A stretch of DNA of 64,000 nt from positions 4,402,001-4,466,000 of the forward strand of contig NC_016112.1 of NCBI RefSeq assembly GCF_000968535.2. Reading direction: 5' to 3'. The stretch is from Methylotuvimicrobium alcaliphilum 20Z (GTDB lineage: Bacteria; Pseudomonadota; Gammaproteobacteria; Methylococcales; Methylomonadaceae). The notes under the pieces are model-generated. The model searched no databases and had not been told where the DNA came from. It saw only the letters and a program-made list of their open reading frames with translations. This document shows, piece by piece, positions 6,462 through 62,945 of the stretch. Made by a program: the position numbers and the translations under genes. The stretch's first letter is position 1, and every line of letters begins with the position of its first letter.

Positions 6462-6606
6462 TACCCATCGTAGATCAAAATTCGGCACCGAGGTGTTCGT
6501 CAAAGGACGCCGTGAATACGTCCATGTAGGCTCTATGCTGGCAAAGCCTTTGCCGAACACCCAGGCGCCTCCTTAAGTAATAACGAAATTTGAAGTGCGA
6601 ATGGTA
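6462..6606 (+). repeat. Family A MITE (145 bp, partly deleted)
   Basis: Begins TACCCATCGTAGATC and ends GAAATTTGAAGTGCGAATGGTA, flanked by TA on both sides. It is about 11 bp shorter than the standard 156-bp copy, losing the paired CCAGCTCCATGCTGG segment. It ends at a C-family tail (ATTTATCGCGAAATCCTA, about 6610-6641). Confidence 0.8.
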
Positions 6607-6671
6607 TAACTCCAGGAATTTATTTATCGCGAAATCCTAAATATTCCTGCCATAGTAAAGCAAATCGGAAT

Positions 6672-6909
6672 GTTACTGTGAAAGTTCGTAGATATAGACC
6701 CTTTATCTAATTTTTCGATATACGGCGCTCGACAGAGCAAATGCCGGTTCCGGAGAGGGTGCGGTTGCTCGACCAACAGGCGTCGGCGGCAGGGACAGCC
6801 GCCGTCGAGCCTACAGGGACGTATTCACGGCGTCCTGTCGGGCGAGTGACCGTACCCTCCCCACCAGAGAACTTTCATTTGCCGGGGCGATGGCTAGGCC
6901 TTCATGAAC
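6672..6909 (+). repeat. Family D repeat with core cassette
   Basis: Starts GTTACTGTGAAAGTTCG, contains TCTAATTTTTCGATATA, then the core inverted repeat (GGTGCGGTTGCTCG ... CGAGTGACCGTACC) around GACGTATTCACGGCGTCC, and ends CTTTCATTTGCC ... TTCATGAAC. The same unit is present in reverse at 35946-36183. Confidence 0.75.
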
Positions 6910-7035
6910 GTTACTGTGAAAGTTCGCAAATCCGAAGTCCTTATCTAATTTTTCGATATGTAAAAATATGCTGTAATAATGCCCAGCGCCTCGCACTTTC
7001 ATTTGCTGGGGCGATTGCCAGGCTTTCATGAACGT
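6910..7035 (+). repeat. Core-less family D repeat
   Basis: Abuts the preceding D copy and has the same outer sequences (GTTACTGTGAAAGTTCGC, TCTAATTTTTCGATAT, CTTTCATTTGCTGGGGCGAT, TTCATGAAC). It lacks the whole core cassette and so looks like an empty backbone. Confidence 0.75.
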
Positions 7036-7036
7036 T

Positions 7037-7062
7037 CGGAGCGGGTTGAATAACCCGCTCCG
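7037..7062. other. Perfect hairpin after the cytochrome gene
   Basis: CGGAGCGGGTT-gaat-AACCCGCTCCG is an 11-bp perfect stem with a 4-nt loop, 63 bp past the stop of the minus-strand cytochrome gene. It has no T-run on either strand, so an intrinsic terminator is doubtful; it may be part of the D repeat border or an RNA-stabilising hairpin. Confidence 0.5.
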
Positions 7063-7124
7063 CGAGAAAGGCGGCTAAGTTATAGGTTTTTACGAAATTG
7101 CGCAAAACCCGAGCATGAAGAAGA

Positions 7125-7535
7125 TCAATGCTTGCCCGGCTCCAGCTTCACGCCGCGCCGTTCGTGCGTCACATAAGCCTGAATGGCGGTCATTTTCGGG
7201 TCGTCGGCGGCGAGCGGTTGGCCTTCCAGCGGATTTTTCAGACACCAATTGATCATTTCCCACATCGGCACGACTTTACCTAGCTGTTTTTGAAATTTCG
7301 GATAAGTTTCAGGATGCGTGTTCGCGGCATTCGGATGGCACTGTGCGCAGGCGACGCCGTTGGTACCTAATTCAGGACTGGTCCATAGGCCTCGGCCTTG
7401 TTGGACGACGCCCATGAATTGTTGTTGCCAGCGTTCCAGATCGGCATCGGTAAATTCATCGGCGGAAGCAATGGGCATTGCGAATGTCAGCGCCAACGGC
7501 AGCAACAGGATAGCTTTAATGGGTTTGAGTTTCAT
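7125..7535 (-). CDS. Periplasmic monohaem c-type cytochrome
   Basis: 136 aa with a Sec signal peptide (residues 1-25, ending ASADE). One haem-binding motif, CAQCH, lies at about residues 62-66. The C-terminal half (WEMINWCLKNPLEGQPL then MTAIQAYVT) resembles the small class I/SoxA-type cytochrome fold, where NP-G-PL blocks precede the last helix; several Met residues could be the distal ligand. It is the last gene of a three-gene minus-strand cluster, 21 bp after the phosphoesterase gene. It may pass electrons to or from the di-haem protein encoded two genes upstream, which is inference from context. No specific symbol is assigned. Confidence 0.82.
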   Translation of the reverse strand: MKLKPIKAILLLPLALTFAMPIASADEFTDADLERWQQQFMGVVQQGRGLWTSPELGTNGVACAQCHPNAANTHPETYPKFQKQLGKVVPMWEMINWCLKNPLEGQPLAADDPKMTAIQAYVTHERRGVKLEPGKH

Positions 7536-7556
7536 GCGGTTCTCCCTGTTGGAATC

Positions 7557-8633
7557 CTAGAAATGCGTTTGCGGCGGAATGCGTGCGTCTTCGCTTTGAT
7601 AAGCGCTGTCTTCCGGTTGTTTGGTTTTAGTATTGTAGATCACCGAACGCGCGGTGTTGTTATACAGCGTGTAATGCAGATCGACATTGCCGTTACTGGT
7701 ATTGATAAACTGCCAACCGGTTGCGTCGCGCTCGAAAAAAGGATCGGCACGGTTCATCGGGACGGTTAATTTCGGTAGATATTGCTCGGCTTGAGCGTAA
7801 GACTGCGGATAGGGCCACGGCCATGCGGTGGCCATGACCGAGTTGAAGCTGATGTTGCCGATTTGGTTGTATTGGATTTGATGTACATGGCCATATATAA
7901 CCGATACCTTATCGAAGGGCTTGAGTAAGGCTTGGATTTCTTCGGCGTCTTCGGTCCAGAAATTCCAGCCTTTGAAGATTTTTTGCAGCGGCGAATGCGA
8001 TAACACGACGATCGGTGTAGTTTTGGCGACTTTGGATAAATCGGATTTGAGCCAGTTTCTTTGTTCCTCGCCGACCATGAACGGCGATCCGTTCGGATTG
8101 TCGAGTCCGGCCATTTCCAGCATACGCTGTTCGTTGCTCGGCCAGCGGTTGAAAGTCCAGTCGTCGTAAGTTCGGATGCTATTCAATACGATGAAATGCA
8201 CGCCCTTATGATTGAAGCTGTAATATTGCGCGCCGAACAGTTGCTCCCAATAGTCGCCGAGGTCGAGATAATAGTCGTGCTCGCCCATCACATAGTGGAC
8301 TTTATAGCGCAATGCCGACATGATTTCGGCCCCGTGATCCAATTCGGCTTTCGTGCCGAGTTGGGCCAAATCCCCGCCGAAAAACACGAAATCGGGCTTC
8401 GGTACCAGTAGATTAGTTTCTGCCACTGCGCGAATCAGTCCCCGGTCCCAATTGCGGACGAAACGCGTGCCTTCGATATGCTGAATATGGGCATCGGAAA
8501 TATAGGCGAACGTGAAGTTTTCGGCCGTGTCGGCAAAAGCCAATTCAATCAGGCTGATCGGTAACGTGCTGCCAAGGGCTGCGGCTCCCGCTGTTTTCAA
8601 AAAACTCCGGCGGCTTTTATGGATCGTATTCAT
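7557..8633 (-). CDS. Tat-exported calcineurin-like metallophosphoesterase
   Basis: 358 aa. The N-terminus carries a twin-arginine signal (SRRSFLKTAGAAALG). Metal-ligand motifs in order: ISDAHIQ (Asp, His), FFGGDLAQ, GEHDYY (in place of the usual GNHD), LSHSPL and YGHVHQ. The missing Asn of GNHD is notable because that Asn normally binds a metal and phosphate. Probable periplasmic phosphoesterase with a dinuclear metal centre; substrate unknown. It lies between a di-haem peroxidase-like gene (14 bp upstream) and a cytochrome c gene (21 bp downstream), so all three are probably co-transcribed and act in the periplasm. Confidence 0.87.
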   Translation of the reverse strand: MNTIHKSRRSFLKTAGAAALGSTLPISLIELAFADTAENFTFAYISDAHIQHIEGTRFVRNWDRGLIRAVAETNLLVPKPDFVFFGGDLAQLGTKAELDHGAEIMSALRYKVHYVMGEHDYYLDLGDYWEQLFGAQYYSFNHKGVHFIVLNSIRTYDDWTFNRWPSNEQRMLEMAGLDNPNGSPFMVGEEQRNWLKSDLSKVAKTTPIVVLSHSPLQKIFKGWNFWTEDAEEIQALLKPFDKVSVIYGHVHQIQYNQIGNISFNSVMATAWPWPYPQSYAQAEQYLPKLTVPMNRADPFFERDATGWQFINTSNGNVDLHYTLYNNTARSVIYNTKTKQPEDSAYQSEDARIPPQTHF

Positions 8634-8647
8634 CGTTCAAGTCTCCT

Positions 8648-9862: not shown

Positions 9863-9951
9863 TTCAAGCCTCCAGCGGACAGAAGAACTGATTGGCATTG
9901 TAGTTTTTAAAAAGCCTTATCACAAGGCAATTCATGTTATGGACGATAGGT

Positions 9952-12249
9952 TTAGTCGAACATCGGAAATAAATCGATCAATCCATCGGCGGGAAGCGGT
10001 TTGGAATATAAAAAGCCTTGTCCGAAACGGCAGCCCGCTTGCATCAAGTAGGTGGCTTGTTCGTTATTTTCAATGCCTTCGGCAATGATATCCAAACGCA
10101 TGTGACGGGCAATCGAAATGATGGAGTGGACAATCACTTTATCGTCAGGGTCGTTCAATATGTCACGGACAAAGGAGCGGTCGATCTTGATCGAATTAAT
10201 CGGAAATTTTTTAAGATACGTTAACGAGGAATAACCCGTGCCGAAATCGTCCAACGATACGGTTATGCCCATTTGCATCAATTGTTGCAAAATGCGTATC
10301 ACGGCGGACATATGTTGCATCATGACGGTTTCGGTGATTTCGATTTCTAAAAACCTCGCGTCAAGTCCGGTGCTATCCAGGCACTGCCTGATCGAATGGA
10401 CCAAATCATTTTGCAGAAATTGTCGTGCCGATAGATTGACGCAGATTTTTTTTAATTGCGGTTGATCTTGATCGCGCCAAATCTTGAATTGCTTACAAGC
10501 GGACTTTAAAACCCATTCGCCGATTGCAACGATCATACCGGTTTCTTCGGCAATCGGAATGAAGTCATCGGGTGAAATCAGTCCTTTTCTCGGGTGATTC
10601 CAGCGTAACAACGCTTCGAAACCGATAATTTGATTCGGTGTTGTTTGTAAATCGATCAAGGGTTGGTAGTATACGATAAACTCATGATTGGGCAGGGCAT
10701 GATGCAGATCGTTTTCAAGCGTGCTGCGGGTGAGCGCCTCGGAGCGCATATTATCGGAGAAATATTGGTAATTATTGCGTCCCGAAGCTTTTGCGTGATA
10801 CATCGCGGCATCCGCGTTTTTGATCAATTCATCGACCGAAGAGCCATCCTTCGGAAATAGCGTGAATCCGATACTCGTCGATGTGATGAACTGGTTGCCG
10901 GATAAATCGAAAGGTTGCGATAACACATCGAGTATTTTTTTGGCGATCTCGGCGCTATGTAGTGCCGCACTCTGCTCGTCGACGAAATCGGTCAATAAAA
11001 TAACGAATTCGTCGCCACCGAAACGCGCGACCGTATCGCTTTCTCGCACGCAGCTTTTGAGGCGTTTAGCCACATTTTGCAGCAATAAGTCGCCGGCAAA
11101 ATGACCGAGGGTATCGTTGAGTATTTTGAAGCGATCCAGATCGAGAAAAAACACCGAAAGCCATAGTTTATGGCGTACGGCTTGAACGATGCCTTGCTTG
11201 AGCCGGTCGTTCAATAAAGCGCGATTAGGCAGTTCGGTCAAGGGATCGAAATAAGCCAATTGTTCGATTTGTTTCTCATTGAGTTTGCGTAGCGTGATGT
11301 CGGAAAATATGCCGATATAATGACTGACGCGACCGAATTTATCGTTGATGCGGCAAATACTGAGCCATTCGGCGTATAAATCTCCATTTTTTCTACGGTT
11401 CCAGATTTCGCCTTGCCAACAGCCTTCTTTGTTGATTTTTTGCCACATATCGCGGTAGAACTCAGGGCTTTGTCGTCCGGAGGAGAGAATTTTCGGCGTT
11501 CGGCCGATGACTTCGGCCGGTTTATAGCCCGTTACCGCGGTAAAAGCGAAGTTTATTTTGAGAATGGTCGTATCGGGCGCGGTAATCATGATGCTTTCCT
11601 GGCTATGCTCGAACACTTTCGCGGCAAGTTTTAGTTGCTCTTCCATTTTTTTGCGTTCGCCGATAGTAATGATATTGACCAGTAAACAATCATGATTGAA
11701 ATCGACACTCGCGCCGGTTTGCTTTTTTATCAAGCGTCCGCTGAGTTCAATGTAAATAGGTTTTTTGTGTCTATCGAGCAATCGCAATTCGATATGCTTT
11801 CCGTCCGGTTTTTTATAAAAAGCGTTGTAACGTGCGTTAAAAATACTCAAGTCGTCGACATGAATAAAAGCGGTTAGAAACTTATCGCGTAATTCGCTAT
11901 GGCTTTTACCGAGCATTTCTTGCACGGTTTGATTCGATTGCAAAATGCGTCCTTTTTCATCCAGTCTTAAAAAACCTACCGGCGCTAGGTCGAAAAGTGT
12001 AATGAAGTCGTTTCTTGAAGCAATGAGTTGTTGCTGCGCTTCTACGAGCTGTTCGTTTTGCATGCGCAGTTCGATTTGATGCACATTCAGCTCGTGAAAC
12101 AGCGTCTGCAAATCAAGCGGCAAATCCGCATCGAGATGGTTCGGCTCGAAATTGATTAAGGCTTCCGCTTCATGTCTTAAATCGTCGATATCCGCTGGAT
12201 TTTTCTTCATCTTGCGTGCCGGTTTAGTGTCGTTGTTCGCTGAATGCAA
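9952..12249 (-). CDS. PAS-PAS-GGDEF-EAL cyclic-di-GMP protein
   Basis: 765 aa. An N-terminal helical segment (45-80) precedes two PAS domains (about 80-200 and 205-325, the second ending GIFSDITLRK). The GGDEF domain has an intact GGDEF at 411-415 and an I-site RESD at 402-405. The EAL domain has EALLRW at about 544 and DDFGTGYSS, so both cyclase and phosphodiesterase activities look possible. There is no membrane segment, so it is a cytoplasmic sensor. Its start overlaps the 3' end of the CheB-CheR-PAS gene by 26 bp (ATG 12249) unless ATG 12210 (MKKNPAD) is used; neither has a strong Shine-Dalgarno. The overlap implies co-translation, hence a shared pathway. Confidence 0.9.
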   Translation of the reverse strand: MHSANNDTKPARKMKKNPADIDDLRHEAEALINFEPNHLDADLPLDLQTLFHELNVHQIELRMQNEQLVEAQQQLIASRNDFITLFDLAPVGFLRLDEKGRILQSNQTVQEMLGKSHSELRDKFLTAFIHVDDLSIFNARYNAFYKKPDGKHIELRLLDRHKKPIYIELSGRLIKKQTGASVDFNHDCLLVNIITIGERKKMEEQLKLAAKVFEHSQESIMITAPDTTILKINFAFTAVTGYKPAEVIGRTPKILSSGRQSPEFYRDMWQKINKEGCWQGEIWNRRKNGDLYAEWLSICRINDKFGRVSHYIGIFSDITLRKLNEKQIEQLAYFDPLTELPNRALLNDRLKQGIVQAVRHKLWLSVFFLDLDRFKILNDTLGHFAGDLLLQNVAKRLKSCVRESDTVARFGGDEFVILLTDFVDEQSAALHSAEIAKKILDVLSQPFDLSGNQFITSTSIGFTLFPKDGSSVDELIKNADAAMYHAKASGRNNYQYFSDNMRSEALTRSTLENDLHHALPNHEFIVYYQPLIDLQTTPNQIIGFEALLRWNHPRKGLISPDDFIPIAEETGMIVAIGEWVLKSACKQFKIWRDQDQPQLKKICVNLSARQFLQNDLVHSIRQCLDSTGLDARFLEIEITETVMMQHMSAVIRILQQLMQMGITVSLDDFGTGYSSLTYLKKFPINSIKIDRSFVRDILNDPDDKVIVHSIISIARHMRLDIIAEGIENNEQATYLMQAGCRFGQGFLYSKPLPADGLIDLFPMFD

Positions 12250-15200
12250 TCAAAAGCGCTTCTCCGACGTGATCTCCGAGAACCGATGCGTTTATTTTGA
12301 CGGCTAATTCTTGATTGTCCTTGGTGAGTCTTTGGATCGATAGCGTTTGCGGGACCGAACATCCCCGCGTCAATCCGGCGATAAAGCGCAGTACTTGTGT
12401 TCTACCGGATTCGGGCGTTAGGTCTGCGATATTGCGGCCTATGGCTTCTTGCTTGAGCCAACCGTATAAAATCTCGGCGCCTTTATTCCAAGCGGTTATT
12501 TTTCCTTGCGGGTCCAGTAAAAGCAATGCTTCCTCGGTATCCATCACGAGCGAAGCAAGGCGCTGAAGGCAACTGACGCAATCGTTTTTGACCGCCGTCA
12601 TATGTGCGCTGATATCGCGTTCGGTCAAGGCGATCAATTCGTTGCCTTGGCTTTCGGAATAAAGTAGCGAAGCCGTGACGGAAACATCGATCAATTTACC
12701 GCTTTTGGTGATACGCCGAGTTTCAAATTGCGATACGGCTTCGCCTAGATGATTTTTTTGCTGCAGCTTAGCAGCGATCGAGATGTCGGCAGACGGCATA
12801 AGCGATTGAAATTTCATGCCCAGCGCTTCCCGTTCAGTCCATCCGTAGAGTTTTTCGGCGCCGCGGTTCCAGGTGACGATGTTGCCGTCCAAGTCTTGCA
12901 ACGTGATCGCGTCGTCAGAATAAAGCGCGAAATTGGCTAAGCGTTCGCGTTCCATTTTTTCGCGTATCTTAAGCTCGGTTTCGGTGCGTTTTAGCCGGTC
13001 GATATCGATGAAAGTCAGAATGATGCCGGCATAGGCATTGTCGGATATGGCGTAGGGTAAAACACGCAATAGATACCAATCGCCATTGGCGGTTTGCAGT
13101 TCCTGTTCGAACGGCGTTTGATTTTCGGACACCTCGTTGACGATTGCATCCAGATTGATATCGAGAATCGAATGCGACAAATGAAAAAAGGGCCGGCCGA
13201 GATCGTTGTCTCGGATATGGAATATCGACTCGAGTTGATGAGTAAAGCGCCTGACTTCGAGATTTTCGTCGAGAAATAGTGTCGCGATATTGGTGCTATT
13301 GAACAAATTATCCAAGTCGTTATTAAGCAGCGTTAATTCGGTGATCTTGCCTTGATACTCGGCGTTGACGGTATACAATTCTTCATTGACCGATTGCAGC
13401 TCTTCGTTGGTGCTTTGCAGTTCTTCGTTGCTGGCTAGCAGTTCTTCATTGGTTGCTTGCAGCTCTTCGTTGGATGTTTCCAATTCCTCTACCGTCGTTT
13501 GCAGGTTTTCTCGCGTGAATTGTAATTCCTGCTCCAGGTCATTGATGCGTTGTCGTGCATCCATGTCGACGTCGTAGGATAAAGGTTCGGTCGAGTTCGG
13601 CTTATTGGGCTCGGTCGTTTCGCTGATCATGACCGCGAGCAATTTTTCCTGGCTTTTCTTGCCGGGCAGGTTTTTGATGGTTAGCGTGACCGTTCTTAAT
13701 TGATCATGGTCGTGAATGCGTATATTGGATAAGACGATTTCATTCGTGCCTTTTAACGCTTTATTAATGCCGGTTGCAATGGGTATTGCCAGATCCTTTA
13801 TGACGATTTTCGTGACGTCGCTGCTGATTTTACCGCTGGGATAGGATAAATAGTCTCTGGCTTCACCGAAGGTATGCGAGATTTCCATGTTTTCGTTAAC
13901 CAACATTGTAAACGGCAAAATATCCCCTGCAATGCCGTTGACGAAACGCTCTAACGTCCGGTCTTCGGAAAAACGGTTGATGGCCGGGCGGTTGACAGTC
14001 GTTGTGAAGGAAGGTTGAAAGCTAGAACCGGTAATTGGGCGCTGTTCCAAAGGTGTCAGCTCGGTCGCTTTGTATTTACCTTTGGAGCGGTATAGTTTGG
14101 TTTTAGGACTGACAAAGTCGAAATAATCGACCATATCGCCGATAGTTTCGCTGGTGCCGAGCAGTAGCAAACCGTCCTTGGTCAGCGAAAAATTGAATAA
14201 TTCTAAGATTTTTTTCTGTAAAACCGGCTGCAGATAAATCAGCACGTTTCTACAACTGATCATATGAATATTGGTGAATGGCGGGTCCTTGATCAGGTTA
14301 TGCTGGGCGAAAACCACCATTTCTCTAATTTTTTGCGTGACTTGAAAATTATCTTCCTTGCGTGAAAAATATTTGCTCAATAGTTCCGGCGGCACATCGG
14401 CGGCAATACTTTCAGGGTACAAACCGGCGCTCGCTTTCTCGATAGCGTTTTGATCGATATCGGTCGCGAATATTTTGATGCGGAAGTAATGTCCGGATTG
14501 CTCACGAGATTCGGCGAGTAACATCGCCAGCGAATAAGCCTCTTCGCCAGTCGAGCATGCGGTTACCCACAAACGTAGGTCATCTCCTTGCAGTTTTCCG
14601 ATCGATTCAGGTAGCCATTTTTCATTGAACTCTTGAAAAACGAATTCGTCCCGGAAAAAACATGTCACACCGATCAAAAGCTCTTGATAGAGGGTATTGA
14701 TTTCTTGCTGGTTCGTTTCCATGAACCGGACATATTCGGTCAAATCGGCAAGTTGATTGATGCTGACCCGTCTCTCGATGCGGCGCATTACAGTACTAGG
14801 TTTGTAATAGGTAAAATCGATTTTGCATTTTTCGCGAAGCAGCGCGAAGATGCGGGTAATGCTGGTGCCGCCTTGTGGGATGATGTCCGTTTCCAGGCTG
14901 CCGGAATAAGGATGTTTAATGAAGGATAATAACTGCGGAGGCATTTCGTCCGGCGCAAGAATAAAATCGGCAAGTCCGGTCGCGGTTGCGTTGTTCGGCA
15001 TGCCGGTGAATTTGGCGGATTCTTCGTCTTGAACCATCACCATGCCGCCGTGCTCCTTGATCGCCCGAATGCCGCGAGTGCCATCGCTGCCTGTTCCGGA
15101 CAAAATAATCGCAATCCCGCGATTTCCTGCATCCTCGGCTAGAGATCGCAAGAAGATATCGACTGGCAGGTTAAGTCCTTCGGTTCGAACTTGTTCCTTG

Positions 15201-15499
15201 AGCAACAGTTTGCCGTGAAAAATGGTTAGGTTTTGTCGAGGGGGTATCAGGTAAATGTGGTTCTGATTGACTGCCATGCCATCCTCGATCCGATGTACGG
15301 GCATTTCGGTATGCTTGGACAGTAATTCAGCCATCAGGCTTTTATAATCGGGCGAAAGATGTTGAACGACGACAAATGCGAGTCCGGAATTGATCGGCAT
15401 TTTCTTGAAGAATGACTCGATAGCCTCAAGGCCGCCGGCCGAGGCGCCGATGCCGACGATATAAGGCGCCGTAAGTTCGGATGAGGTGCCGTTTTCCAT
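12224..15499 (-). CDS. CheB-CheR-PAS chemotaxis fusion protein
   Basis: 1091 aa. The N-terminal CheB methylesterase domain (10-190) has its catalytic residues: Ser20 in GASAGG, His47 in VVQHLSPD and Asp139 in GTGSDG. There is no receiver domain. A CheR methyltransferase domain follows (about 215-480: [15 protein letters not shown] for SAM binding, [11 protein letters not shown]). A coiled coil of repeated NEELQ(S/A)TNEEL heptads (about 655-735) leads to three PAS domains (about 745-860, 865-980, 985-1090). This architecture is known in proteobacteria and normally acts outside the flagellar chemotaxis operon. It overlaps the downstream GGDEF-EAL gene, suggesting a methylation or PAS-sensing arm coupled to c-di-GMP turnover. 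Confidence 0.92.
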
Positions 15500-15746: not shown

Positions 15747-16135
15747 TACTCCCTTTTGATTGAAAAACCGTCTAAGAATAAACGGCATGGGATGTGTCTA
15801 TCGAGGAGGGCCGTGAACCCATACATGGGGACTTGACGGCAGCTCAGCGCCAAGGATGGTGTGAATGCAGATTTTGCAGGAGCAAAAATCTGCCCCTGCT
15901 GCCGACTTCCTAGCTAGCCACACCCCACACACCATACCTTTATGAAGTTATACCCATCGCAGATCAAAATTCGGCACCAGGGTGTCCGTCAAAGGACGCC
16001 GTGAATACATCCCTGTAGGCTCTATGCCAGCTCCATGCTGGCAAAGCCTTTGCCGCACACCCTGGCGCCTCCTCAGGCACTGCCGAAATTTGAAGTGCGA
16101 AAGGTATAGCTATTTTTTGAGTATCAAAGGGAGTA
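15747..16135 (+). repeat. Family E repeat interrupted by a family A MITE
   Basis: The ends are inverted: TACTCCCTTTTGAT on the left and ATCAAAGGGAGTA on the right. The inside carries the shared core variant (GGCCGTGAACCCATACATGGGG) and a GCAGATTTTGC/GCAAAAATCTGC inverted repeat. A complete family A element (15951-16106) sits in it with a TA duplication. The uninterrupted relative at 23014-23309 shows the empty site (AAGTTAGCC). Confidence 0.85.
15951..16106 (+). repeat. Family A MITE, standard 156-bp copy nested in E
   Basis: Terminal sequences TACCCATCGCAGATC and GAAGTGCGAAAGGTA are imperfect inverted repeats (about 20 of 25 positions) and continue inward as CACCAGGGTGT / ACACCCTGGCG. TA flanks both sides (15949-15950 and 16107-16108). 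Comparison with the second E copy proves insertion with duplication of a TA dinucleotide. Confidence 0.9.
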
Positions 16136-16184
16136 GGATTTTGATTTTGCGGCGTTGAAATTTTGATTTGTGAAATAAATAAGG

Positions 16185-17820: not shown

Positions 17821-17976
17821 TACCTTTCGCACTTCAAATTTCGGCAGTGCCCGAGGTGGTGCCGGGGTGTCCGACAAAGGCTTTGCCAGCATGGAGCTGG
17901 CATAGAGCCTACATGGGCGTGTTCACGGCGTCCTTTGACGGACACCCCGGTGCCAAATTTTGATCTACGATGGGTA
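17821..17976 (-). repeat. Family A MITE, reverse orientation
   Basis: Full 156-bp copy reading TACCTTTCGCACTTC to CTACGATGGGTA, with TA at 17819-17820 and 17977-17978. It lies between folA and the multicopper oxidase gene. The remaining sequence up to 18074 holds that gene's leader, including GAGGAAGGAACA just before the start. Confidence 0.9.
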
Positions 17977-21549: not shown

Positions 21550-21983
21550 TAGGATTTCGTGAAAAATAACTTCCTGGAGCTATGAGTTTTGCAGCAGGTT
21601 CGGTAACTCGCTTGACAGGACGCCGTGAACCCAGCACCTAAATTATCCAAGATAGTTAACCATAGCCAACGGGCTATGGAATTTAGGTGCTGGGTGAATA
21701 CGTTCGTGTAGGCTTGACGGCGGCGACTGATTGCCAAGGATGGGGCATGAATGCAGATTTTGCATTACGCCATAGATGGCGTGTATTAGGACACCAGCAG
21801 TAGGCGCTTTAGACGATGCAGGGCAGAAAAATGCTCCTGCATTTTCTGCATTCGTTACATCCTTGTAACTCAGCAATTGCCGAGGAGCAAAAATCTGCCC
21901 TGCCGCCGACACCTGTCAATCGAGCAACCGAACCTGCTTACCGTGCATTAAAAATAGGGAAGTTATTTATGACCGAATCCTTA
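21550..21983 (+). repeat. Family C repeat with nested palindrome G and an expanded core
   Basis: Ends are inverted (TAGGATTTCGTGAAAAATAAC left, GTTATTTATGACCGAATCCTTA in similar form right). The core stem (GGTTCGGTAACTCGCTTGACAG / CTGTCAATCGAGCAACCGAACC) encloses a palindromic insert G (21630-21694) and a longer cargo variant (TGCAGATTTTGCATTACGCCAT ... GGAGCAAAAATCTGCC). The last TTA is the complement of the toxin gene's stop codon. Confidence 0.8.
21630..21694. repeat. Palindromic insert G, copy 1
   Basis: 65 bp with 15-bp perfect terminal inverted repeats CCCAGCACCTAAATT / AATTTAGGTGCTGGG, flanked by TGAA on both sides (21626-21629, 21695-21698). It interrupts the conserved core GGACGCCGTGAATACGT, so it is a separate insertion. 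Confidence 0.8.
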
Positions 21984-22700: not shown

Positions 22701-22777
22701 CCTCAAACTACCGTTCGCCCCGAGCCCTTCGGCTGCGCTCAGGAGAGCCCTGTCGAAGGGTGAGCGGTAGTTTGAGG
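22701..22777. repeat. REP-like hairpin fused to a half family A element
   Basis: The arms CCTCAAACTACCG(T)TCGCCC and GGGTGAGCGGTAGTTTGAGG enclose CCCTTCGGCTGCGCTCAGG, a REP-like sequence. It is followed at about 22800-22880 by the right half of a reverse family A element (GCCTACATGG ... GATCTACGACGGGCATA). The rest of the gap to 23013 shows no gene. Confidence 0.6.
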
Positions 22778-23013
22778 CTTCACCAGGCCGGTGAAAGTGT
22801 TGTAGAGCCTACATGGAACGTATTCACGGCGTCCTTTAGCGGACACCCAGTCGCCGAATTTTGATCTACGACGGGCATACAACACATGCCAACTCGGGTC
22901 GGTGTCTCACCTTCCGAGTAATTAGGTAAACATATACTTCGCGTGTGTTGGTTTAATTGTCTGTGCAACATGGCAGCAAATTCACCTGCCATATTCACAA
23001 AATTGGACGGTAT

Positions 23014-23309
23014 TACTCCCTTTTGATCGAAAAACCGTCTAAGAATAAAAGGTATGGAATGTGTCTATCGAGGACAGCCGTGACCCCAGCACCTAAATTA
23101 TCCCAGATAGTTAATCATAGCTAATGGCTCATGGAATTTAGGTGCTGGGTAAACCCATCCATGGGAGCTTGACGGCAGCAATCGAACGCCAAGGATGGCG
23201 TGAATGCAGATTTTGCATGAAGCAAAAATCTGCCCTGCTGCCGACATCCTCGCTAGCCACACCCCATACCTTCATAAAGTTAGCCATTTTTTGAGTATAT
23301 AAGGGAGTA
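23014..23309 (+). repeat. Family E repeat without family A, carrying palindrome G
   Basis: The termini TACTCCCTTTTGATCG and AAGGGAGTA match 15747-16135. The site where A sits in the other copy is intact here (AAAGTTAGCCATTTTTTGAG). A 65-bp G palindrome occupies 23085-23149 in the core; its flanks (TGAC and TAAA) are not identical, so this copy is older or altered. Confidence 0.8.
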
Positions 23310-27817: not shown

Positions 27818-28051
27818 TAAGGATTTGGTCGTAAATAACTTCCCTATTTTAGGGAGGGTTCGGTTGCTCGATTGGCAGGTGTCGGCGGCAGGGCAGATTT
27901 TTGCTCCTGCAAAATCTGCATTCATGCCATCCTTGGCAATCAGTCGCCGCCATCAAGCCTACAAGGAAGTATTCACGGCGTCCTACCAAGCGAGTTACCG
28001 AACCCTCAACAAAGCTCATAATTCCAGGGCGTTATTTATCACGAAATCCTA
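27818..28051 (+). repeat. Family C repeat upstream of icd
   Basis: A complete and readable C copy. It starts TAAGGATTTGGTCGTAAATA, ends ATTTATCACGAAATCCTA, and the core stem is GGTTCGGTTGCTCG / CGAGTTACCGAACC. The icd ribosome site (AAGGAG) begins 12 bp after it, so any icd promoter must lie in or before the repeat. Confidence 0.8.
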
Positions 28052-34174: not shown

Positions 34175-34332
34175 TACCCATCGCAGATCAAAATTCGGCA
34201 CCAGGGTGTCCGTCAAAGGACGCCGTGAATACATCCCTGTAGGCTCTATGCCACAGCTCCATGCTGGCAAAGCCTTTGCCGCACACCCTGGCGCCTCCTC
34301 AGGCACTGCCGAAATTTGAAGTGCGAAAGGTA
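34175..34332 (+). repeat. Family A MITE (158 bp)
   Basis: Same termini and core as the 156-bp copies, with two extra bases. TA flanks both ends, and the right TA is directly followed by the TA that begins the family B element, so A and B lie back to back (GGTA-TA-TA-TACTTCG). Confidence 0.88.
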
Positions 34333-34336
34333 TATA

Positions 34337-34495
34337 TACTTCGCGCGGCCACATTTGCTGTTTTCTAACGCGCTCTTTTGTTCGATAGCTGCGTTACGAA
34401 AACAGTTACATAGCTTGCTATGCGCCTGTTTTCGCGCCTTGCTCTCGAACAAAATAGCATTGCCATAAAAGCCGCAAACATGAACGCACGAAGTA
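34337..34495 (+). repeat. Family B MITE containing the baeS start codon
   Basis: 159 bp, from TACTTCGCGCGGCCAC to CGCACGAAGTA, TA on each side. Inside is the inverted pair CGCGCTCTTTTGTTCG / CGAACAAAATAGC and GCGAAAACAG-type arms around TAGCTTGCTATG. Copies at 48441-48645 and 61968-62120 define the family. The right end carries ATG AAC GCA CGA AGT, the start of baeS. Confidence 0.85.
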
Positions 34496-35945: not shown

Positions 35946-36183
35946 GTTCATGAAAGCTCGGCAATCACCCCGGCAAATGAAAGTACGAGGCGTGGGGAGG
36001 GCGCGGTCACTCGCCCGACAGGACGCCGTGAATACGTCTATGTAGGCTCGATGGCGGCTATCCTGCCGCCAACGCCTGTCGATCGAGCAACCGCACCCTC
36101 TCCTGAACCGGCATTGCCAGAACAGAGTTTTGTATATCGAAAAATTAGATAAAGCACCCATGTCTACGGACTTTCACAGTAAA
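35946..36183 (-). repeat. Family D repeat between baeS and baeR
   Basis: Reverse copy of 6672-6909: GTTCATGAAAG at the left, ACTTTCACAGTAA at the right, with TATCGAAAAATTAGATAAAG and the core stem (GCGGTCACTCGCCCGACAGG / CGATCGAGCAACCGC). It separates the sensor from its regulator. The remaining sequence to 36393 ends with a clear GAGGA ribosome site for baeR. Confidence 0.75.
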
Positions 36184-42446: not shown

Positions 42447-42602
42447 TACCCATCGCAGATCAAAATTCGGCACCAGGGTGTCCGTCAAAGGACGCCGTGA
42501 ATACATCTCTGTAGGCTTTATGCCAGCTCCATGCTGGCAAAGCCTTTGCCGCACACCCTGGCGCCTCCTCAGGCACTGCCGAAATTTGAAGTGCGAAAGG
42601 TA
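42447..42602 (+). repeat. Family A MITE followed by a truncated C repeat
   Basis: Standard 156-bp A with TA flanks. Directly after it (42603-42735) lies a C core lacking its usual outer end: GGCTTCGGTGGCTCGATTGG, GCAGGGCAAATTTTTGCTCC, GGCGTTCGATTGCTGCCGTTAAGCC. That truncated core runs into the 3' end of the toxin gene. Confidence 0.85.
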
Positions 42603-42720
42603 TAACTTCCCTATTCTATGGAGGCTTCGGTGGCTCGATTGGCTGGTGTCCGCGGCAGGGCAAATTTTTGCTCCATGCAAAATCTGCATTCACGCCATCC
42701 TTGGCGTTCGATTGCTGCCG

Positions 42721-46800: not shown

Positions 46801-47563
46801 CCGTGTCGCCGCGCCTTTGTCCGACGGAATATTTACGAAGTTCATGCGTATCCAATAATCCGGTTCGGGTCAGCGCGCCAATGTGCAGGCTGTCCGGAAA
46901 CCAAAAAACGTGCAGCACTTCGGTGTTTTCATCGGTTAAGCAACGGCGATCGCGCTGTTTGAAATGATATATGCAGGCATCGCCGGAGGCGTCTTCCTGA
47001 TAAGAAATATACAATAAGCTTTGCCCGTCCGGGCTCAAGCGTGGTTGGCTCGTGTCGGCATTATCATCGAATACCAAGGTCGGCGCATTGCGCAATAGGC
47101 TTTGCCGATGAATCTCGGTGGTAGTGTTGGCGTTGCTGACAAAGGAAAGGGTTTCTCCGTCGTCGGCAAGTTGACCTTGGAAATGGTCGTAGCGCCCGGC
47201 GGTTAGGCCGACCATCGTTTCTAGTCGGTCCTTGGGCGGATTCGCACCGATTGCAACATTGCTCAGCAATCCGGAGGCGAGCAGACTCCATAGACATGTC
47301 TGCAGCTTGTTAGGATTTCGTGATAAATAACGTCCTGGAACTATGAGCGTTGTTGAGGGTTCGGTCACTCGCTTGACAGGACTCCGTGAATACGTCCATG
47401 CTTGACGGCGGCGACTGATTGCCGAGGATGGCATGAATGCAGATTTTGCATTACGCCATGGGTGGCGTGTATTAGGGTAATGCAGGAGCAATTGCCGTGG
47501 AGCAAAAATCTGCCCTGCCGCCGACACCAGCCAATCGAGTAACCGAACCCTCCCTGAAATCAT
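43877..47563 (-). CDS. Very large exported beta-propeller/TPR protein with repeat-derived 5' end
   Basis: The native protein begins near 47310 (about 1140 aa), with a signal-like segment LQTCLWSLLASGLLSNVAIGA. The open frame continues for 84 codons upstream through a C repeat to an ATG at 47563 that is made by the end of another insertion, so the start is uncertain (TTG 47269 is an alternative). Residues about 130-400 contain PD40/TolB-like repeats (RLSPDGQSLLY, TVSPDGRWLVY, TFSPDGQYLYF) and a dockerin-like loop DTNFDGVIDGGD. The rest is helical with TPR-like pairs (ALGNHHIALRHFQER, YEQAENLYRALLPE). Probably a periplasmic scaffold; partner of the lipoprotein gene upstream. Confidence 0.75.
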   Translation of the reverse strand: MISGRVRLLDWLVSAAGQIFAPRQLLLHYPNTRHPWRNAKSAFMPSSAISRRRQAWTYSRSPVKRVTEPSTTLIVPGRYLSRNPNKLQTCLWSLLASGLLSNVAIGANPPKDRLETMVGLTAGRYDHFQGQLADDGETLSFVSNANTTTEIHRQSLLRNAPTLVFDDNADTSQPRLSPDGQSLLYISYQEDASGDACIYHFKQRDRRCLTDENTEVLHVFWFPDSLHIGALTRTGLLDTHELRKYSVGQRRGDTGELLLSRNIAAPTVSPDGRWLVYVPLEQGTSGQFSFMMRASSGFVLHPLISGLSPRLFRPDMPGSTGFPTFSPDGQYLYFTQFLNDTNFDGVIDGGDNGILFRARFDGDAVSPIRRGSYEQLTSGRRNCQYPSPARDKLIATCLRAGYLQIYSLPLSGLVPPDWTRQRIEEELLVTRDPWERLLLLKRLLPDTEDQAKRIAIYRRIILEHLSLHEYESTEYHLRLLQDLDDADAWLADWTEVLLELTAYRRDEQRLPHGKLNAAFIQAQQERLDRLSRWQGARHSTVHRLAAMARLEILDVLGDKKQALALSDALDLAGEKDTFSLHLIAMQQQKFLRLLDERERLLRMFRQLAEHSAFSERERLRYADAYKRSLLQGLARREQRQSLAKRLETVEPDSPLGFMLSIESHLLATDAASQAITQDHLTSLFQETGSFERRRALIMSAIDHAAYNDYQQLLYTMGSLWLDTVLVGHPERKHAEAIFADIVLEKAYAEMAGGHPAEAAELFHEITETTTSLEAHEGYIEASLRSGKFSEQLLAAYKTRYSDRPKAPEWAFVQAYLRGQRLNAITDLEKHRAEVDRDMALLLPALQVLPRSPEIHHLYAYLAHREFHRSHDHEMAMIAHTHYHLALDLAPRNPRRKASVLHELGLLQAALGNHHIALRHFQERARLPFTRPRQELSFRLDKARSHYFRGRYRTSKSEIESAQTLIDDHRDKLAEFRTLVIDRGAFYHYVGGDYEQAENLYRALLPEITGENLAERLKAHLGLGASLLKTSQYELAIAELSHAWALLDSDEPMRRNETRAGRLDKDDYRHIVAGLLAHAQRGAGNFDAAFDAMRERRRWLLKRFEEYEQETYLQEAASASHHLAVLSVMQGRLGAAIRHIEEGLSDADTWRVHAGVPMDSVTLALLQTAAELCIFAGASPDQFSINLPARLNQAFEIIIRESNPKWLPTRRLFADYLAAFDLDGLKTLE

Positions 47564-48975: not shown

Positions 48976-49131
48976 TACCCATCGCAGATCAAAATTCGGC
49001 ACCAGGGTGTCCGTCAAAGGACGCCGTGAATACATCCCTGTAGGCTCTATGCCAGCTCCATGCTGGCAAAGCCTTTGCCGCACACCCTGGCGCCTCCTCA
49101 GGCACTGCCCAAATTTGAAGTGCGAAAGGTA
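48976..49131 (+). repeat. Family A MITE, standard copy
   Basis: 156 bp with TA flanks, immediately followed by a 60-bp core-less A (49136-49195) in the other orientation; only TATA separates them. Confidence 0.88.
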
Positions 49132-51198: not shown

Positions 51199-51202
51199 CG
51201 CA

Positions 51203-52435: not shown

Positions 52436-52599
52436 AGCAATTCCCAGTTTGAGCAGTTTCGCCGATTTTAGGGTGTGGGGTATGCCTGTCGAGGAACGCC
52501 GTAAACCCATCCATGGGGGCTTGGCGGCAGCTCCCTGCTGCCGACATCCTCGCCAAGCATACCCCACACCCTTTTTGATCTCCAAATTGGGAATTGCTA
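52436..52599 (+). repeat. Family K MITE, short copy with 9-bp target duplication
   Basis: 164 bp. Ends CAGCAATTCCCAGTTTG and CAAATTGGGAATTGCTA are inverted repeats; GGTCACATG is duplicated on each side (52427-52435, 52600-52608). Inside is the shared core variant (GGAACGCCGTAAACCCATCC) in a long hairpin (TGTGGGGTATGCC ... CATACCCCACA). The rest of the gap to 52794 has only the leader of the next gene. Confidence 0.85.
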
Positions 52600-54732: not shown

Positions 54733-54952
54733 GCAGATCAGAGTCACCGATATCCCTCAGAGCGGAAGGTTGGCCTTACATTTGACATTCAGACCTCCTT
54801 TTTCTAATTTGAAATTCAATATTTTTTTGATTCTTGGATTACATGGATGTGAAGCTACGCATTGCCATCCCTGGCGGAATGACCCGTTTTTCCCTTAAGT
54901 TGGCGCCTATGGGAGCGAGCCCTAGGCACGAAAGTGAGCAGGCTGACAGAAC

Positions 54953-55804: not shown

Positions 55805-55917
55805 GCTGTTTGCTCCGTTGGTGGACCGAAATGCTATAGGGTAAGATCCATAATCAAGAATTCTTATGAATAATCACTCCAATCGCAGGCCTTATTTTTC
55901 TTGATTCGAAACCCCAT

Positions 55918-59475: not shown

Positions 59476-59546
59476 AGCAGGCAGATTAAGCAATATAAGC
59501 CATGGGATCAAGTACTTAAAAACTTGTATGCCCCGGTAATAAATTA

Positions 59547-59955
59547 TACCTTTCGCACTTCAAATTTCGGCAGTACCGGAGGAGGCCTCTGGGTGCTCGA
59601 TAAAGGCTTTGTGTCGCTATCGCGACGCTTATGTGTAGTCGGTTCGCGGACCGACAACCGCGATACTGCTACGAAACCCAATCCCTGGGTTTCGCCCTTC
59701 GGGCCAGCTAAAGCTGTTCAAAATCGCTCCAGGCGATTTTGTCTTTGCTTGTCCAAAGAAAAGTATCCAAAAGAAAAGACACCCGGAGGCCGCTGCATCC
59801 TGCGCGCTGACGATTTTGCCGAGGGTTTTCGGAAGGGCTATCCCTAGCCCTCCGAAAACAAGCGGCATCCCTGCCGCTCCCCTAGCGGGCTATTCTCGGC
59901 AAAATCGCCAGTGCTCGGCGCGGCCTAACGGGGCCCAGGGAGGGGTACCATAAGT
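59547..59955 (-). repeat. Family A end attached to a long GC-rich repeat
   Basis: Starts with the A end TACCTTTCGCACTTCAAATT (TA before it) and the words TCGATAAAGGCTTTG, then about 370 bp of other palindrome-rich sequence (ATTTTGCCGAGGGTTTTCGG, CCTAGCCCTCCGAAAAC, CTCGGCAAAATCG), ending near GGGGTACC. Either an A element with cargo or an insertion in A. No gene is supported in 59476-60063. Confidence 0.55.
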
Positions 59956-60063
59956 TAAGCCGAATTGACTAAGCGTTCTAAGTAACAGGATAACATATTG
60001 ATATATTGATTATTTTAATGCGTTTTCCCTGCTATGCCTTCGATAACTTGCATCTATTTGAGC

Positions 60064-61818
60064 CTATATATAACAACATCGGTTTCGCCCGTTATGCTTG
60101 GCTTCATACAGCGCACGATCCGCTTTTGTGATCAGCTTCTCGAGAGATTGCGTTTCCGGGCTCAGACACGAAATACCCAAACTCGCAGTAATTGTTTGTT
60201 CGATACCGGGAAGACTCAATTCGGCGATGGCCTCACGCAATCGCTCTGCAAATTTAAGAGCGCTGTGCGAATCCGCCTCTTCCAACAACAAAACAAATTC
60301 CTCGCCGCCGAAACGCGCGGCAAAATCGCTGTCTCGACAACTTTTCCGTAAACAATCGGCAACCATGACCAACACTTGGTCGCCCACCGTGTGCCCATAA
60401 GTATCGTTGAAGCGTTTAAAGTGATCGATATCCAACACGATGACCGACAAGTTACGTTTGTAACGCAGGGCCGCGCGAAATATTGGTTCGCCTTTTTGAT
60501 AAAAAGCGCGCCGGTTCATGATATTGGTCAACGGGTCTCTCGTCGCTAATAATTCGAGCTCCCGAGTGCGATCTTTGACTTTTTGTTCCAGCGTTGCGTT
60601 GAGCCGCTTTAGCTCGGTTTGCGTTTGTACGAAATGATGTAACGAAATGGCGATCAACGCCAATGAGAAGCTCAACAAGCCCCAGGCCAGCGGTATTCGC
60701 CGCCAAGGTAGAATGCTGTGCGCCACAGCCATATCGAGCAACAGCAATAGACCGAAAAAAGCAAATGTGACGATGATGACTTTTTGTTCATTGTTGGCAT
60801 GACGAAATCTCGAGAAAGCCACTGCAAACAATAACGACAGACTGATCGCAAATAAACCGTCAAAAACGAAATACATTCTGGAAATTGCACTATAACCGAC
60901 TAATGGCAATATATTGGCGCCTACTACATAGACTAAATGAAATCGCCATAGCGCCCCGATCAATCTTTGATACTTGATACCGGCACACCATTCGCCGAAC
61001 AATAAAGCCATAGCGACCGGCAATAAAAAATAGCCGGTCGCGGCCAAATGATCCCAAAACAATGGCGCGTTGAACAACCACAATCTGACTTGACTCTGCC
61101 CGAAGACCATCAAGGCGGAAGCCAAGGCGAACAATGCCAAATAATAAAAACTTCTCCGCTCGGCTTGCAGTAATGCGAAAACAAATGCCAAACCGGCAAT
61201 CAGCAAGGAAAAGCCGCTGACGACAATCTGTTCCACTGAATGTTCGAGAATCAATTTGATCAAATCGAGTCGTTCCATCAACTTGACCTCGCCCCACAGG
61301 CCGATGTCGCTATAGTCGGAAAACACCCGAAAATAAAGAAACTTGCCGGCAAAATCGGCAGGCAGTTGGATCATGTGCCAAGGCCAACCTTCGAAACGTC
61401 CTTGGCCGTTATGATCGAAATTGCCGTACTGATAGATTTTTCGCCCATCCAGATAGGCTTGAACAATCAAGTCTACACTGTAGATATAAATGACCGGGTC
61501 TTGCCAATTGCCGTTCGGTAAAACGGTACGGAACCAAATATTGGTTTGTCCGTCGCGTCCCGGAGGATTGGAAGGAAAGTCGATTGGGTGCCATGCTCCA
61601 TAGGCGTTGTCTTGCAGAGCCCATTCCGGCCGCCCTTGGGCATCGAAAGATGAATCGCCCCAGCGGTATTGCCAACCGCTATGCAATTGCAGGGTTGATT
61701 CATACGCTTGGAGGCTAACCGTAAAAAATGACAGACAAAGCAACAACCCGCCTTTCAGCCGGTGTTCCGTCACAAAATTTATTACGTAAACGACTAATCG
61801 TGTAAGCAACGGTATCAA
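60064..61818 (-). CDS. Membrane diguanylate cyclase with 7TMR-DISM sensor
   Basis: 584 aa. N-terminal signal/anchor, a periplasmic jelly-roll-like 7TMR-DISM extracellular domain (about 45-190: WHPIDFPSNPP, IWFRTVLPNG, FEGWPWHMIQLP), seven hydrophobic helices (about 200-385), a short coiled coil (LKRLNATLEQKVKDRTREL) and a GGDEF domain with intact active site ARFGGEEFV and an I-site RDSD five residues before it. It makes c-di-GMP in response to an unknown periplasmic ligand. Single gene; GGDEF begins after DPLTNIMNRRAF. Confidence 0.92.
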   Translation of the reverse strand: MIPLLTRLVVYVINFVTEHRLKGGLLLCLSFFTVSLQAYESTLQLHSGWQYRWGDSSFDAQGRPEWALQDNAYGAWHPIDFPSNPPGRDGQTNIWFRTVLPNGNWQDPVIYIYSVDLIVQAYLDGRKIYQYGNFDHNGQGRFEGWPWHMIQLPADFAGKFLYFRVFSDYSDIGLWGEVKLMERLDLIKLILEHSVEQIVVSGFSLLIAGLAFVFALLQAERRSFYYLALFALASALMVFGQSQVRLWLFNAPLFWDHLAATGYFLLPVAMALLFGEWCAGIKYQRLIGALWRFHLVYVVGANILPLVGYSAISRMYFVFDGLFAISLSLLFAVAFSRFRHANNEQKVIIVTFAFFGLLLLLDMAVAHSILPWRRIPLAWGLLSFSLALIAISLHHFVQTQTELKRLNATLEQKVKDRTRELELLATRDPLTNIMNRRAFYQKGEPIFRAALRYKRNLSVIVLDIDHFKRFNDTYGHTVGDQVLVMVADCLRKSCRDSDFAARFGGEEFVLLLEEADSHSALKFAERLREAIAELSLPGIEQTITASLGISCLSPETQSLEKLITKADRALYEAKHNGRNRCCYI

Positions 61819-61967
61819 TCGACCTGATAAATTAAATTGACGGGGAAGCTATCGATTGCGATAGGCTGATAGCAAATATCAGAGACATACCTTATTGCAC
61901 TGCGCATTTCGACAAAGTCTCAAGGAATTGCTGGCGCGCTTTGCATTGTTGACACGGCCGAAGTATA

Positions 61968-62120
61968 TACATCGCGCGGTCACATGTTCGGTTTTCTAAC
62001 GCGCTCTTTAGTTCGGTAACTGCGTTGTGAAAACAGTTACATAGCTTGCTATGCGCCTGTTTTCGCGCCTTGCTACCGAACAAAATAGCATTGCCATAAA
62101 AGCCGAAAACAGGCGAAGTA
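61968..62120 (+). repeat. Family B MITE (153 bp)
   Basis: TACATCGCGCGGTCACATG to AGGCGAAGTA with TA flanks. Same interior as 34337-34495, including AACGCGCTCTTTAGTTCGG and ATAGCTTGCTATGCGC. The end lacks the outward ATG seen in the other two copies. Confidence 0.8.
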
Positions 62121-62162
62121 TAGCACCGTAACGTTAGGGAAAATGGGCATACCTCACAAGCC

Positions 62163-62440
62163 CAGCAATTCCCAGTTTGAGCATTTTCGCCGATCTTAGG
62201 GTGTGGGGTATGCCTGTCGAGGAACGCCGTAAACCCATCCATGGGGAGCTTGGCGGCAGCTCGAACGCCACGGATGGCGTGTATTAGGGCAATGCAGGGC
62301 AGAAAAATGCTCCTGCATTTTCTGCATTCATTACATCCATGTAACTCAGCAATTGCCGAGGAGCAAAAATCTGCCCTGCTGCCGACATCCTCGCCAAACA
62401 CACCCCACACCCTTTTTGATCCCCAAATTGGGAATTGCTG
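62163..62440 (+). repeat. Family K MITE, long copy with extra cargo
   Basis: 278 bp. The same ends CAGCAATTCCCAGTTTGAG / CAAATTGGGAATTGCTG; TCACAAGCC duplicated at 62154-62162 and 62441-62449. The core contains an extra segment of about 115 bp (GCGTGTATTAGGGCAATGCA, TGCTCCTGCATTTTCTGC, ACATCCATGTAACTCAGC) also found in the C repeat at 21550-21983. Confidence 0.87.
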
Positions 62441-62464
62441 TCACAAGCCGGTACAAACGATTTA

Positions 62465-62620
62465 TACCCATCGCAGATCAAAATTCGGCACCAGGGTGTC
62501 CGTCAAAGGACGCCGTGAATACATCCCTGTAGGCTCTATGCCAGCTCCATGCTGGCAAAGCCTTTGCCGCACACCCTGGCGCCTCCTCAGGCACTGCCCA
62601 AATTTGAAGTGCGAAAGGTA
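62465..62620 (+). repeat. Family A MITE, standard copy
   Basis: 156 bp with TA flanks (62463-62464, 62621-62622); very close to the copies at 48976 and 15951, so it spread recently. Confidence 0.88.
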
Positions 62621-62789
62621 TATTGAATTTTAAATTATGGCTGCATGTTAACCGAATAGCTAGGGTCGGAAAAATTATGACGAATAATTTACTCGACCAG
62701 TGCACGAACTTCGAACATTATTTGGCTTACATACCGGAGTTTTTGTAATGATTTAAAGCGCGTTCAAGACTAAGAAAGTATTCAATTTA

Positions 62790-62945
62790 CCCGTCGTAGA
62801 TCAAAATTCGGCGCCGGGGTGTCCGCCAAAGGACGCCGTGAATACGTCCATGTAGGCTCTATGCCAGCTCCATGCTGGCAAAGCCTTTGCCGCACACCCC
62901 GGCGCCTCCTCGGGCACTGCCGAAATTTAACTGGTAAAGGGTGTA
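62790..62945 (+). repeat. Family A MITE, diverged right end
   Basis: Left end TACCCGTCGTAGATC and core are intact. The right terminus is altered (AAATTTAACTGGTAAAGGGT instead of GAAGTGCGAAAGGTA), so it is probably immobile. It precedes the 3' end of the methyltransferase gene. Confidence 0.78.

Follow-up and report, generated by a model that had tools for sequence, protein, structure and literature searches.

What is the short core that recurs inside repeats with different ends in the genome of Methylotuvimicrobium alcaliphilum 20Z? The window analyzed here, a stretch of 64,000 nucleotides of contig NC_016112.1 (positions 4,402,001 to 4,466,000), contains repeat families A, C, D, E and K, which all carry a version of this core. 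A first-pass annotation of the window had read it as a GGACG-n9-CGTCC hairpin and had regarded it either as a mobile unit entering several families of miniature inverted-repeat transposable elements (MITEs) or as a functional module such as an RNA or a protein-binding site. The best explanation, which we consider fairly probable, is a dispersed RNA module with the core at its tip. With the same confidence we propose a transposon-borne module that would bind CsrA and would titrate it or tag read-through transcripts; we infer its binding, transcription and effect.

A recurrent core within a larger palindrome

The earlier claim that the core is real and repeated in several repeat backbones was borne out. 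The GGACGCCGTGAATACGTCC core, with up to three mismatches allowed, matched 14 times in the window (0.02 expected) and the K-variant core twice (0.00 expected). Across the 4.8-Mb genome the 19-mer core gave 185+184 = 369 matches, and the reversed control pattern gave none. A covariance model, R1, recovered 17 copies in the window, the weakest with an E-value of 0.0044, and at least 150 in the whole genome. Two family E copies that are absent from the R1 result were recognized by eye: one near 21584 is broken by an insert, the other near 47356 carries a deletion.

In the copies laid out, an intact element is an imperfect palindrome of about 105 bp. It consists of a long outer helix of free sequence, P1, topped by two small hairpins, hp2 and hp1. 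Most of the 19-mer lies within hp2, and the 19-mer alone is not the unit. The size variants described earlier are real as well; the long ones contain an additional module (cargo), a hairpin insertion behind GTGAA, or both. The 112 host copies studied below are mostly exact 19-mer matches, among the matches listed.

Conserved structure

The K variant suggested a conserved hairpin, GCC-GTRAA-NNN-RTCCNT-NNN-GGC, on the strand read in the first-pass annotation. On the opposite strand, referred to as the ANGGA strand, this conserved hairpin reads GCC-NNN-ANGGAY-NNN-UUYAC-GGC. With both NNN triplets left free, the pattern occurred in 18 of the 101 genomes from the order and in 32 of the 369 from the class, and its reversed control yielded one match in one genome. 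The two triplets mostly complement each other: in 144 matches from other genomes, 403 of 432 positions form Watson-Crick pairs. The triplet pairs found there include TAC/GTA, CCC/GGG, TCC/GGA, TAT/ATA, GAC/GTC, CTC/GAG and ACC/GGT, among others.

The whole structure was analyzed in alignment A1, which comprises 23 elements of equal length without gaps, 21 from outside the genus and two from the host. They are 23 of 24 listed 80-mers picked for equal length and diversity; L153, with a broken hp1, was excluded. The three-helix structure pairs 95.1% of the cells compared to 64.2% after shuffling. Both sides had changed in 25 of the 29 base pairs; counted by cells, such changes numbered 214, compared to 65.1 after shuffling. 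RNAalifold yields the identical structure. The check for covariation supporting a conserved RNA was positive. The three outer pairs of hp2 are invariant in A1; outside the search pattern they covary (GCT/AGC 5, GCG/CGC 5, GGC/GCC 1, GCA/TGC 1), and mismatched combinations such as GCG/AGC (4) occur too. We regard the module structure described here as practically certain. The GGACG-n9-CGTCC pairing is present and thermodynamically favoured in G-type copies, but it is not the conserved hairpin. As a candidate for that hairpin it was rejected, since it shows no both-side changes in relatives, though it is stable in the host copies.

The folding strand

The arms of P1 were aligned strand-neutrally and wobble-type deviations were counted per strand. 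The first count used 97 of the 112 host copies and 54 of 57 elements from other genomes (P1 score of at least 10), two of the latter loci coming from a congener. Host copies showed 164 wobble deviations on the ANGGA strand and 31 on the other. Corresponding numbers of G.U pairs were 84 and 20 in the relatives (31 vs 6 elements) and 97 and 22 in 76 elements from named genomes (47 vs 9 elements, p=2.6e-7). Because the host copies are mutually related, it is the relatives and the named-genome set that carry weight. P1 very probably folds on the ANGGA strand, opposite to the earlier reading. The asymmetry gives the folding strand and does not separate RNA from single-stranded DNA.

Candidate CsrA-binding sites

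On the ANGGA strand both loops read A-N-GGA-N, with all four bases occurring at the N positions and, in the 80-nt geometry of A1, a GGA-to-GGA distance of 20 nt. In 44 of 57 relatives chosen by hp2 alone, hp1 contains TCC, which is GGA on the RNA strand. Host copies have GGA in hp1 in 81 of 112 cases, and many of the remaining ones hold cargo there. Among 84 R1-aligned copies from outside the genus, a set partly chosen by the hp2 pattern, GGA was found in hp1 of 80 (ANGGA in 70) and ANGGA in hp2 of all 84. For 41 copies outside the pattern the counts were 36 of 41 for GGA in hp1, 30 of 36 parsed for GGA in hp2 and 22 of 36 for the UUYAC bulge, the loop counts being read with R1's own preference for GGA. 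ACANGGANGU is present in 98 of the 112 host copies and the full UACARGGAUGU in seven, in a set preselected on part of the loop.

The CsrA consensus from SELEX (systematic evolution of ligands by exponential enrichment) is given as RUACARGGAUGU, mostly in six-base loops closed by AC/GU on short stems, and the RsmE motif as an ANGGAN hexaloop; CsrA is described as bridging two sites separated by 10-63 nt, most favourably by more than 18 nt (PMC7652899). The element has GGA or ANGGAN in its loops and two sites within 10-63 nt, and its host possesses CsrA, encoded by one csrA with an intact reading frame (single match, E 1.7e-25). In 23 mostly foreign sequences the predicted probability of GGA being unpaired averages 0.97 in hp1 and 0.66 in hp2.

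Judged from its sequence, the module probably binds CsrA. P1 would present two hairpins, each with the A-N-GGA-N loop that is the recognition motif of CsrA/RsmA, and one CsrA dimer could bridge both GGAs at their 20-nt spacing. The module would spread as a passenger in several MITE-like backbones. CsrA would bind a copy whose ANGGA strand is transcribed, whether through read-through of a neighbouring gene or with the copy expressed as a small RNA (sRNA); hundreds of copies could jointly titrate CsrA, or the transcripts containing them could be tagged. Titration or tagging as the effect is conceivable, if somewhat doubtful. In this genus the second site of the core may act as a switch, with the ANGGA hairpin as its open state and the GGAC/GUCC helix as its closed one. 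A link between CsrA and dispersed repeats was not found in the open-access literature.

Backbones, junctions and core-less copies

Left flanks were read off the copies by eye and compared with 300 shuffles per pair. A, D, K and K' proved mutually unrelated at the left end. Weak similarity links the left ends of C, E and an additional family, F (score reached by 15-16 of 300 shuffles), and C and E are therefore probably not independent backbones. Unrelated termini, claimed earlier for all five families, thus hold for A, D and K but probably not between C and E. In P1, no shuffle out of 300 reached the score of any pair within the lineage C/D/E/F, or that of K/K'; family A has a P1 lineage of its own, scoring best with K' (15 of 300 shuffles). 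P1 plus tip is thus shared between unrelated ends. The part shared by D with C/E/F, and by K with K', is, on this comparison, evidently the whole hairpin of about 105 bp. The junction between core and backbone does not lie at the 19-mer, as P1 belongs to the shared part in the shuffle comparison. With regard to the two initial options, covariation, the P1 strand asymmetry and the conserved loops argue for a functional module (RNA or protein-binding site) present in several MITE-like families; the core as itself a mobile unit is hypothetical.

Core-less copies exist as reported, but as empty backbones that prove insertion they were rejected for family A and are unproven for family D. Among 30 A left ends, two minimal core-less copies (L366, L370) have kept the left arm of P1 and lost the right; these copies are deletion derivatives rather than empty backbones. 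Among 30 D left ends, the sole copy with both ends and without core is the one at 6910-7035 of the window (L437), in which both P1 arms are missing, and the argument is left with this one copy. Family A termini are the inverted repeats TATACC...GGTATA (30 loci), and the inverted ends of the other families were recognized by eye only. Such short repeats with inverted ends are MITE-like, whereas a conserved structured RNA common to unrelated end types is not.

A perfect hairpin of about 85 bp, CCCAGCACCTAAATT...AATTTAGGTGCTGGG, accompanies the core, lying within it or next to it, in 9 of the 30 A loci and in 8 of the 30 D loci. At 11 of the 17 loci it immediately follows GTGAA or a GTGAA variant. 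The site after GTGAA is a putative insertion hot spot for this hairpin. It was seen at 21622-21743 and 23077-23198 of the window, in A loci L371-L388 and in D loci L423-L442, and TGAA is often repeated at its far side. At host locus L389, an A backbone is fused to part of an E element in inverted orientation, a chimera that would fit exchange by recombination.

Comparison with known RNAs

The sRNA family Ysr224 (Rfam RF02770) aligns over its full length to the element of a relative with 38 bits (E 2.9e-7 when 451 bases were searched, 1.9e-5 for a search of 10 loci). This best score lies below the Rfam cut-off of 70 bits, and matches below the cut-off were obtained in 8 of 10 relative loci. Ysr224 has the same CGCCGURAA-UAC-RUCCNU-GUA-GGC hairpin and a second hairpin with a UCC loop; by these features it is evidently identical to the element described here, with the opposite strand being read. 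A published survey places Ysr224 among the 20 most prevalent sRNAs and also lists it as temperature-responsive (PMC9029176), and it is reported as multicopy and expressed in Y. ruckeri (PMC12112432). The literature passages on Ysr224 mention neither a CsrA link nor a MITE setting.

TwoAYGGAY (RF01731) and the reverse complement of Bacillaceae-1 (RF01690) have been proposed to bind CsrA, and like the element they are described with two ANGGA-type loop hairpins on an outer stem (PMC4333381). They differ from it in sequence, and Bacillaceae-1, for which the strand is likewise uncertain, comes from another phylum. TwoAYGGAY shares the Rfam clan CL00106 with RsmW; no gathering-level match to TwoAYGGAY was found within the window. 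The core is best seen as a further RNA of the TwoAYGGAY/Bacillaceae-1 kind, dispersed by mobile elements. The sponges CsrB/CsrC and RsmX/Y/Z/W also present GGA motifs in hairpin loops. These are described as single-locus sRNA genes with many sites (PMC7652899), whereas the element comprises hundreds of two-site copies in mobile backbones. DUF3800-IV (33.7 bits, cut-off 60.7) was discarded as a likeness of shape only.

Alternative explanations

Several observations weigh against a CsrA-binding module on the ANGGA strand. No wobble asymmetry was detected in hp1 (10 vs 6) or hp2 (8 vs 8), where deviations are too rare to be informative. In 68 host copies, the predicted fold leaves the GGA of hp2 unpaired with a probability of only 0.105, the GGAC/GUCC helix reaching 0.84. 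Cargo insertion disrupts hp1, and the conserved UUYAC bulge and GGCG need an explanation other than CsrA. The orientation of flanking genes relative to the element is unbiased, the TwoAYGGAY match to a K copy on the ANGGA strand (22.4 bits) is far under the gathering score of 43, and Ysr224 is annotated on the opposite strand. The mostly hidden GGA of hp2 in host copies, and a bulge and GGCG that require another partner, would suit a structured RNA hairpin whose ANGGA loops serve a different partner (an RNA-binding protein, RNase III or the ribosome) or one that acts in transcript protection or termination; the structure and the P1 strand are independent of CsrA. We consider this unlikely, since both loops, on different stems, retain A-N-GGA with a free N, which is the CsrA/RsmE motif, and since the second and third repeat types described below share A-N-GGA loops. 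The Ysr224 matches lie on the strand of the first-pass annotation in the 8 relative loci, and together with the expression of this multicopy family in Y. ruckeri they favour a trans-acting sRNA of the Ysr224 type, made from the other strand and base pairing via its RUCCNU loops. This is highly improbable, as the P1 wobble asymmetry points to the opposite strand in three sets.

Repetitive extragenic palindromic (REP) elements are dispersed palindromes, in part with GTAG before the hairpin. The element resembles them as a dispersed palindrome in which GTAG precedes hp1 in TAC/GTA copies. It could thus be a REP-like single-stranded DNA substrate of a REP-associated tyrosine transposase (RAYT, Y1) that recognizes GTAG plus hairpin, with a strand asymmetry arising from single-stranded DNA transposition; G.T tolerance in DNA would be strand-specific too, and the genome has five Y1_Tnp genes. 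This candidate, proposed from GTAG, was rejected as extremely improbable. From 62 Y1 matches in 16 genomes, 35 loci were examined, and only one of them has an element within 1.5 kb; two of 15 carrier genomes lack a Y1 match, and GTAG is not conserved, being half a stem that becomes GGGG or GGAG together with its partner. A selfish MITE tip without RNA function, derived from one ancestral element with diverged ends and a hairpin kept by transposition alone, would agree with the unbiased orientation of flanking genes and with the many broken copies, inserts and deletions. It is very unlikely, given that A, D, K and K' have unrelated ends, yet P1 is common to D and C/E/F and to K and K', and that the loops remain ANGGA across the class while the stems turn over.

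Cargo, a third element type and tandem arrays

Loops of the kind proposed to bind CsrA recur outside the core. The long cargo is a different hairpin pair, with TGAAT between an ANGGAT hexaloop and a following AGGA loop. A second cargo subtype shows concerted stem changes, GCC/GGC to TAC/GTA and, with partners, ATTTTGC to AAAATGC. The pattern of the first subtype gave 155 matches in the host genome and 181 in a congener, and was found in 4 of 101 genomes of the order. In the copies read, the GGA loop strand is opposite to that of the core in the first subtype and the same in the second. Three cargo units lie in tandem with a spacing of 49 bp (51826, 51875, 51924). The third element type, at 59804-59914, is intergenic, with another AGGGAT hairpin at about 59675-59695.

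ANGGA loops were present in 19 of 107 window hairpins; 40 resampled sequences averaged 1.4 and reached 4 at most. Among the 83 hairpins outside core elements, ANGGA ranked first of 64 A-N-XYZ types with 7, the next being CCC with 6; two of those seven hairpins lie in an apparent element remnant near 42670. One genome has a 227-bp tandem array of six core units (L450 988-2352), which would hold twelve GGA motifs and may be compared to sponge RNAs in this respect. The units of this array also contain a GTAGGAGCGGCTTCAGCCGCGA hairpin, which presumably resembles known REPs. Tentatively, we suggest that at least three repeat types (core, cargo and the 59804-59914 type) have convergently arrived at paired GGA loops and nest in one another, with core and cargo forming tandem arrays; transposition would rewire or titrate the Csr network, and mobile DNA would have spread CsrA-binding modules through Gammaproteobacteria.

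Distribution and genomic setting

R1 detections covered 77 of the 369 genomes of the class and 68 of its 271 sampled genera (a per-genome count of 12 in this survey means at least 12), a presence that the CsrA-binding module would explain if true. In a sample of the phylum, 33 of 398 genomes had matches, every one in the same class, the share of other classes among the 398 not being given by the result. From the named matches we infer that the carrier class is Gammaproteobacteria. Carriers confirmed by R1, which was applied to 80 named loci out of 119 stretches, include Stenotrophomonas, Xanthomonas, Marinobacter, Shewanella, Vibrio, Microbulbifer and methanotrophs. None of the five pattern matches in records of other groups, namely Lapidilactobacillus, Thermoplasmata, Desulfovibrio, Verrucomicrobiota and Albimonas was confirmed by R1. 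Core pairs in opposite orientation, about 150-320 bp apart, were seen mainly in Xanthomonadaceae (L265, L274, L286, L293 and other named loci), and possible phage carriage was considered from 33 stretches in a viral sequence collection.

Were the CsrA reading true, transposition would directly supply sites for a global post-transcriptional regulator, like transposon-borne transcription-factor sites in animals, and copy number and insertion site would be predicted to tune CsrA activity. It would also provide a mechanism for Ysr224, which is among the most numerous annotated sRNA families.

A cis-regulatory role at a constant position relative to genes was rejected, as flanking orientation shows no bias; intergenic placements are convergent in 39 and divergent in 21 cases. 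Crude open reading frames (ORFs) of at least 100 aa contain 70 of 248 copies, of which 49 lie on the RNA strand and 21 on the opposite one; these ORFs are taken to be mostly spurious.

Repeat elements of the window

Table 1. Repeat elements in the 64,000-nt window. Strand in element rows is the ANGGA strand.
Feature	Position	Strand	Evidence and remarks
Element, family A, hp1 damaged	6493..6560	-	R1 61.5 bits
Element, family D	6767..6847	+	R1 81.7 bits; Ysr224 weak match, other strand
Core-less D element	6910..7035	not assigned	sequence comparison with D left ends
Element, family K', with cargo	15794..15921	-	R1 49 bits
Element, family A	15982..16060	-	R1 79.9 bits
Element, family A	17867..17945	+	R1 75 bits
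Family E, hairpin insert after GTGAA and long cargo	21584..21945 (approximate ends)	-	by eye; no R1 match
Element, family A, diverged	22764..22846	+	R1 35.9 bits
Element, family K', insert and cargo	23140..23250	-	R1 28.8 bits
Element, family E, cargo in hp1	27866..27995	+	R1 65.9 bits
Element, family A	34206..34286	-	R1 69.8 bits
Element, family D	36009..36088	-	R1 81.1 bits; Ysr224 weak match, other strand
Element, family A	42478..42556	-	R1 71.5 bits
Element, family C, minimal loop	43280..43358	+	R1 83.2 bits
Family E, hp2 deletion and cargo	47356..47549 (approximate ends)	-	by eye; no R1 match
Element, family A	49007..49085	-	R1 79.9 bits
Element, family K (CCC/GGG stem)	52482..52560	-	R1 83.9 bits; TwoAYGGAY 22.4 bits same strand, gathering 43
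Third type: long helix, two AGGGAT hexaloop hairpins, without 19-mer core	59804..59914	-	hairpin reading; RsmW weak match E 1.1
Family K, long cargo	62210..62280 (whole copy ~62163-62440)	-	R1 22.6 bits, E 0.0044
Cargo stretch	62292..62387	not assigned	97% alike to 21816-21911
Element, family A	62496..62574	-	R1 79.9 bits
Element, family A	62819..62897	-	R1 78.3 bits

Two further repeats were observed in the window. A 148-bp direct repeat (34333-34480 and 61964-62111, 91% alike) apparently lies outside the core families. Tandem repeats of 21 bp at 13348-13473 lie in an ORF on the minus strand (12224-15499), which Pfam assigns to a CheB-CheR-PAS fusion.

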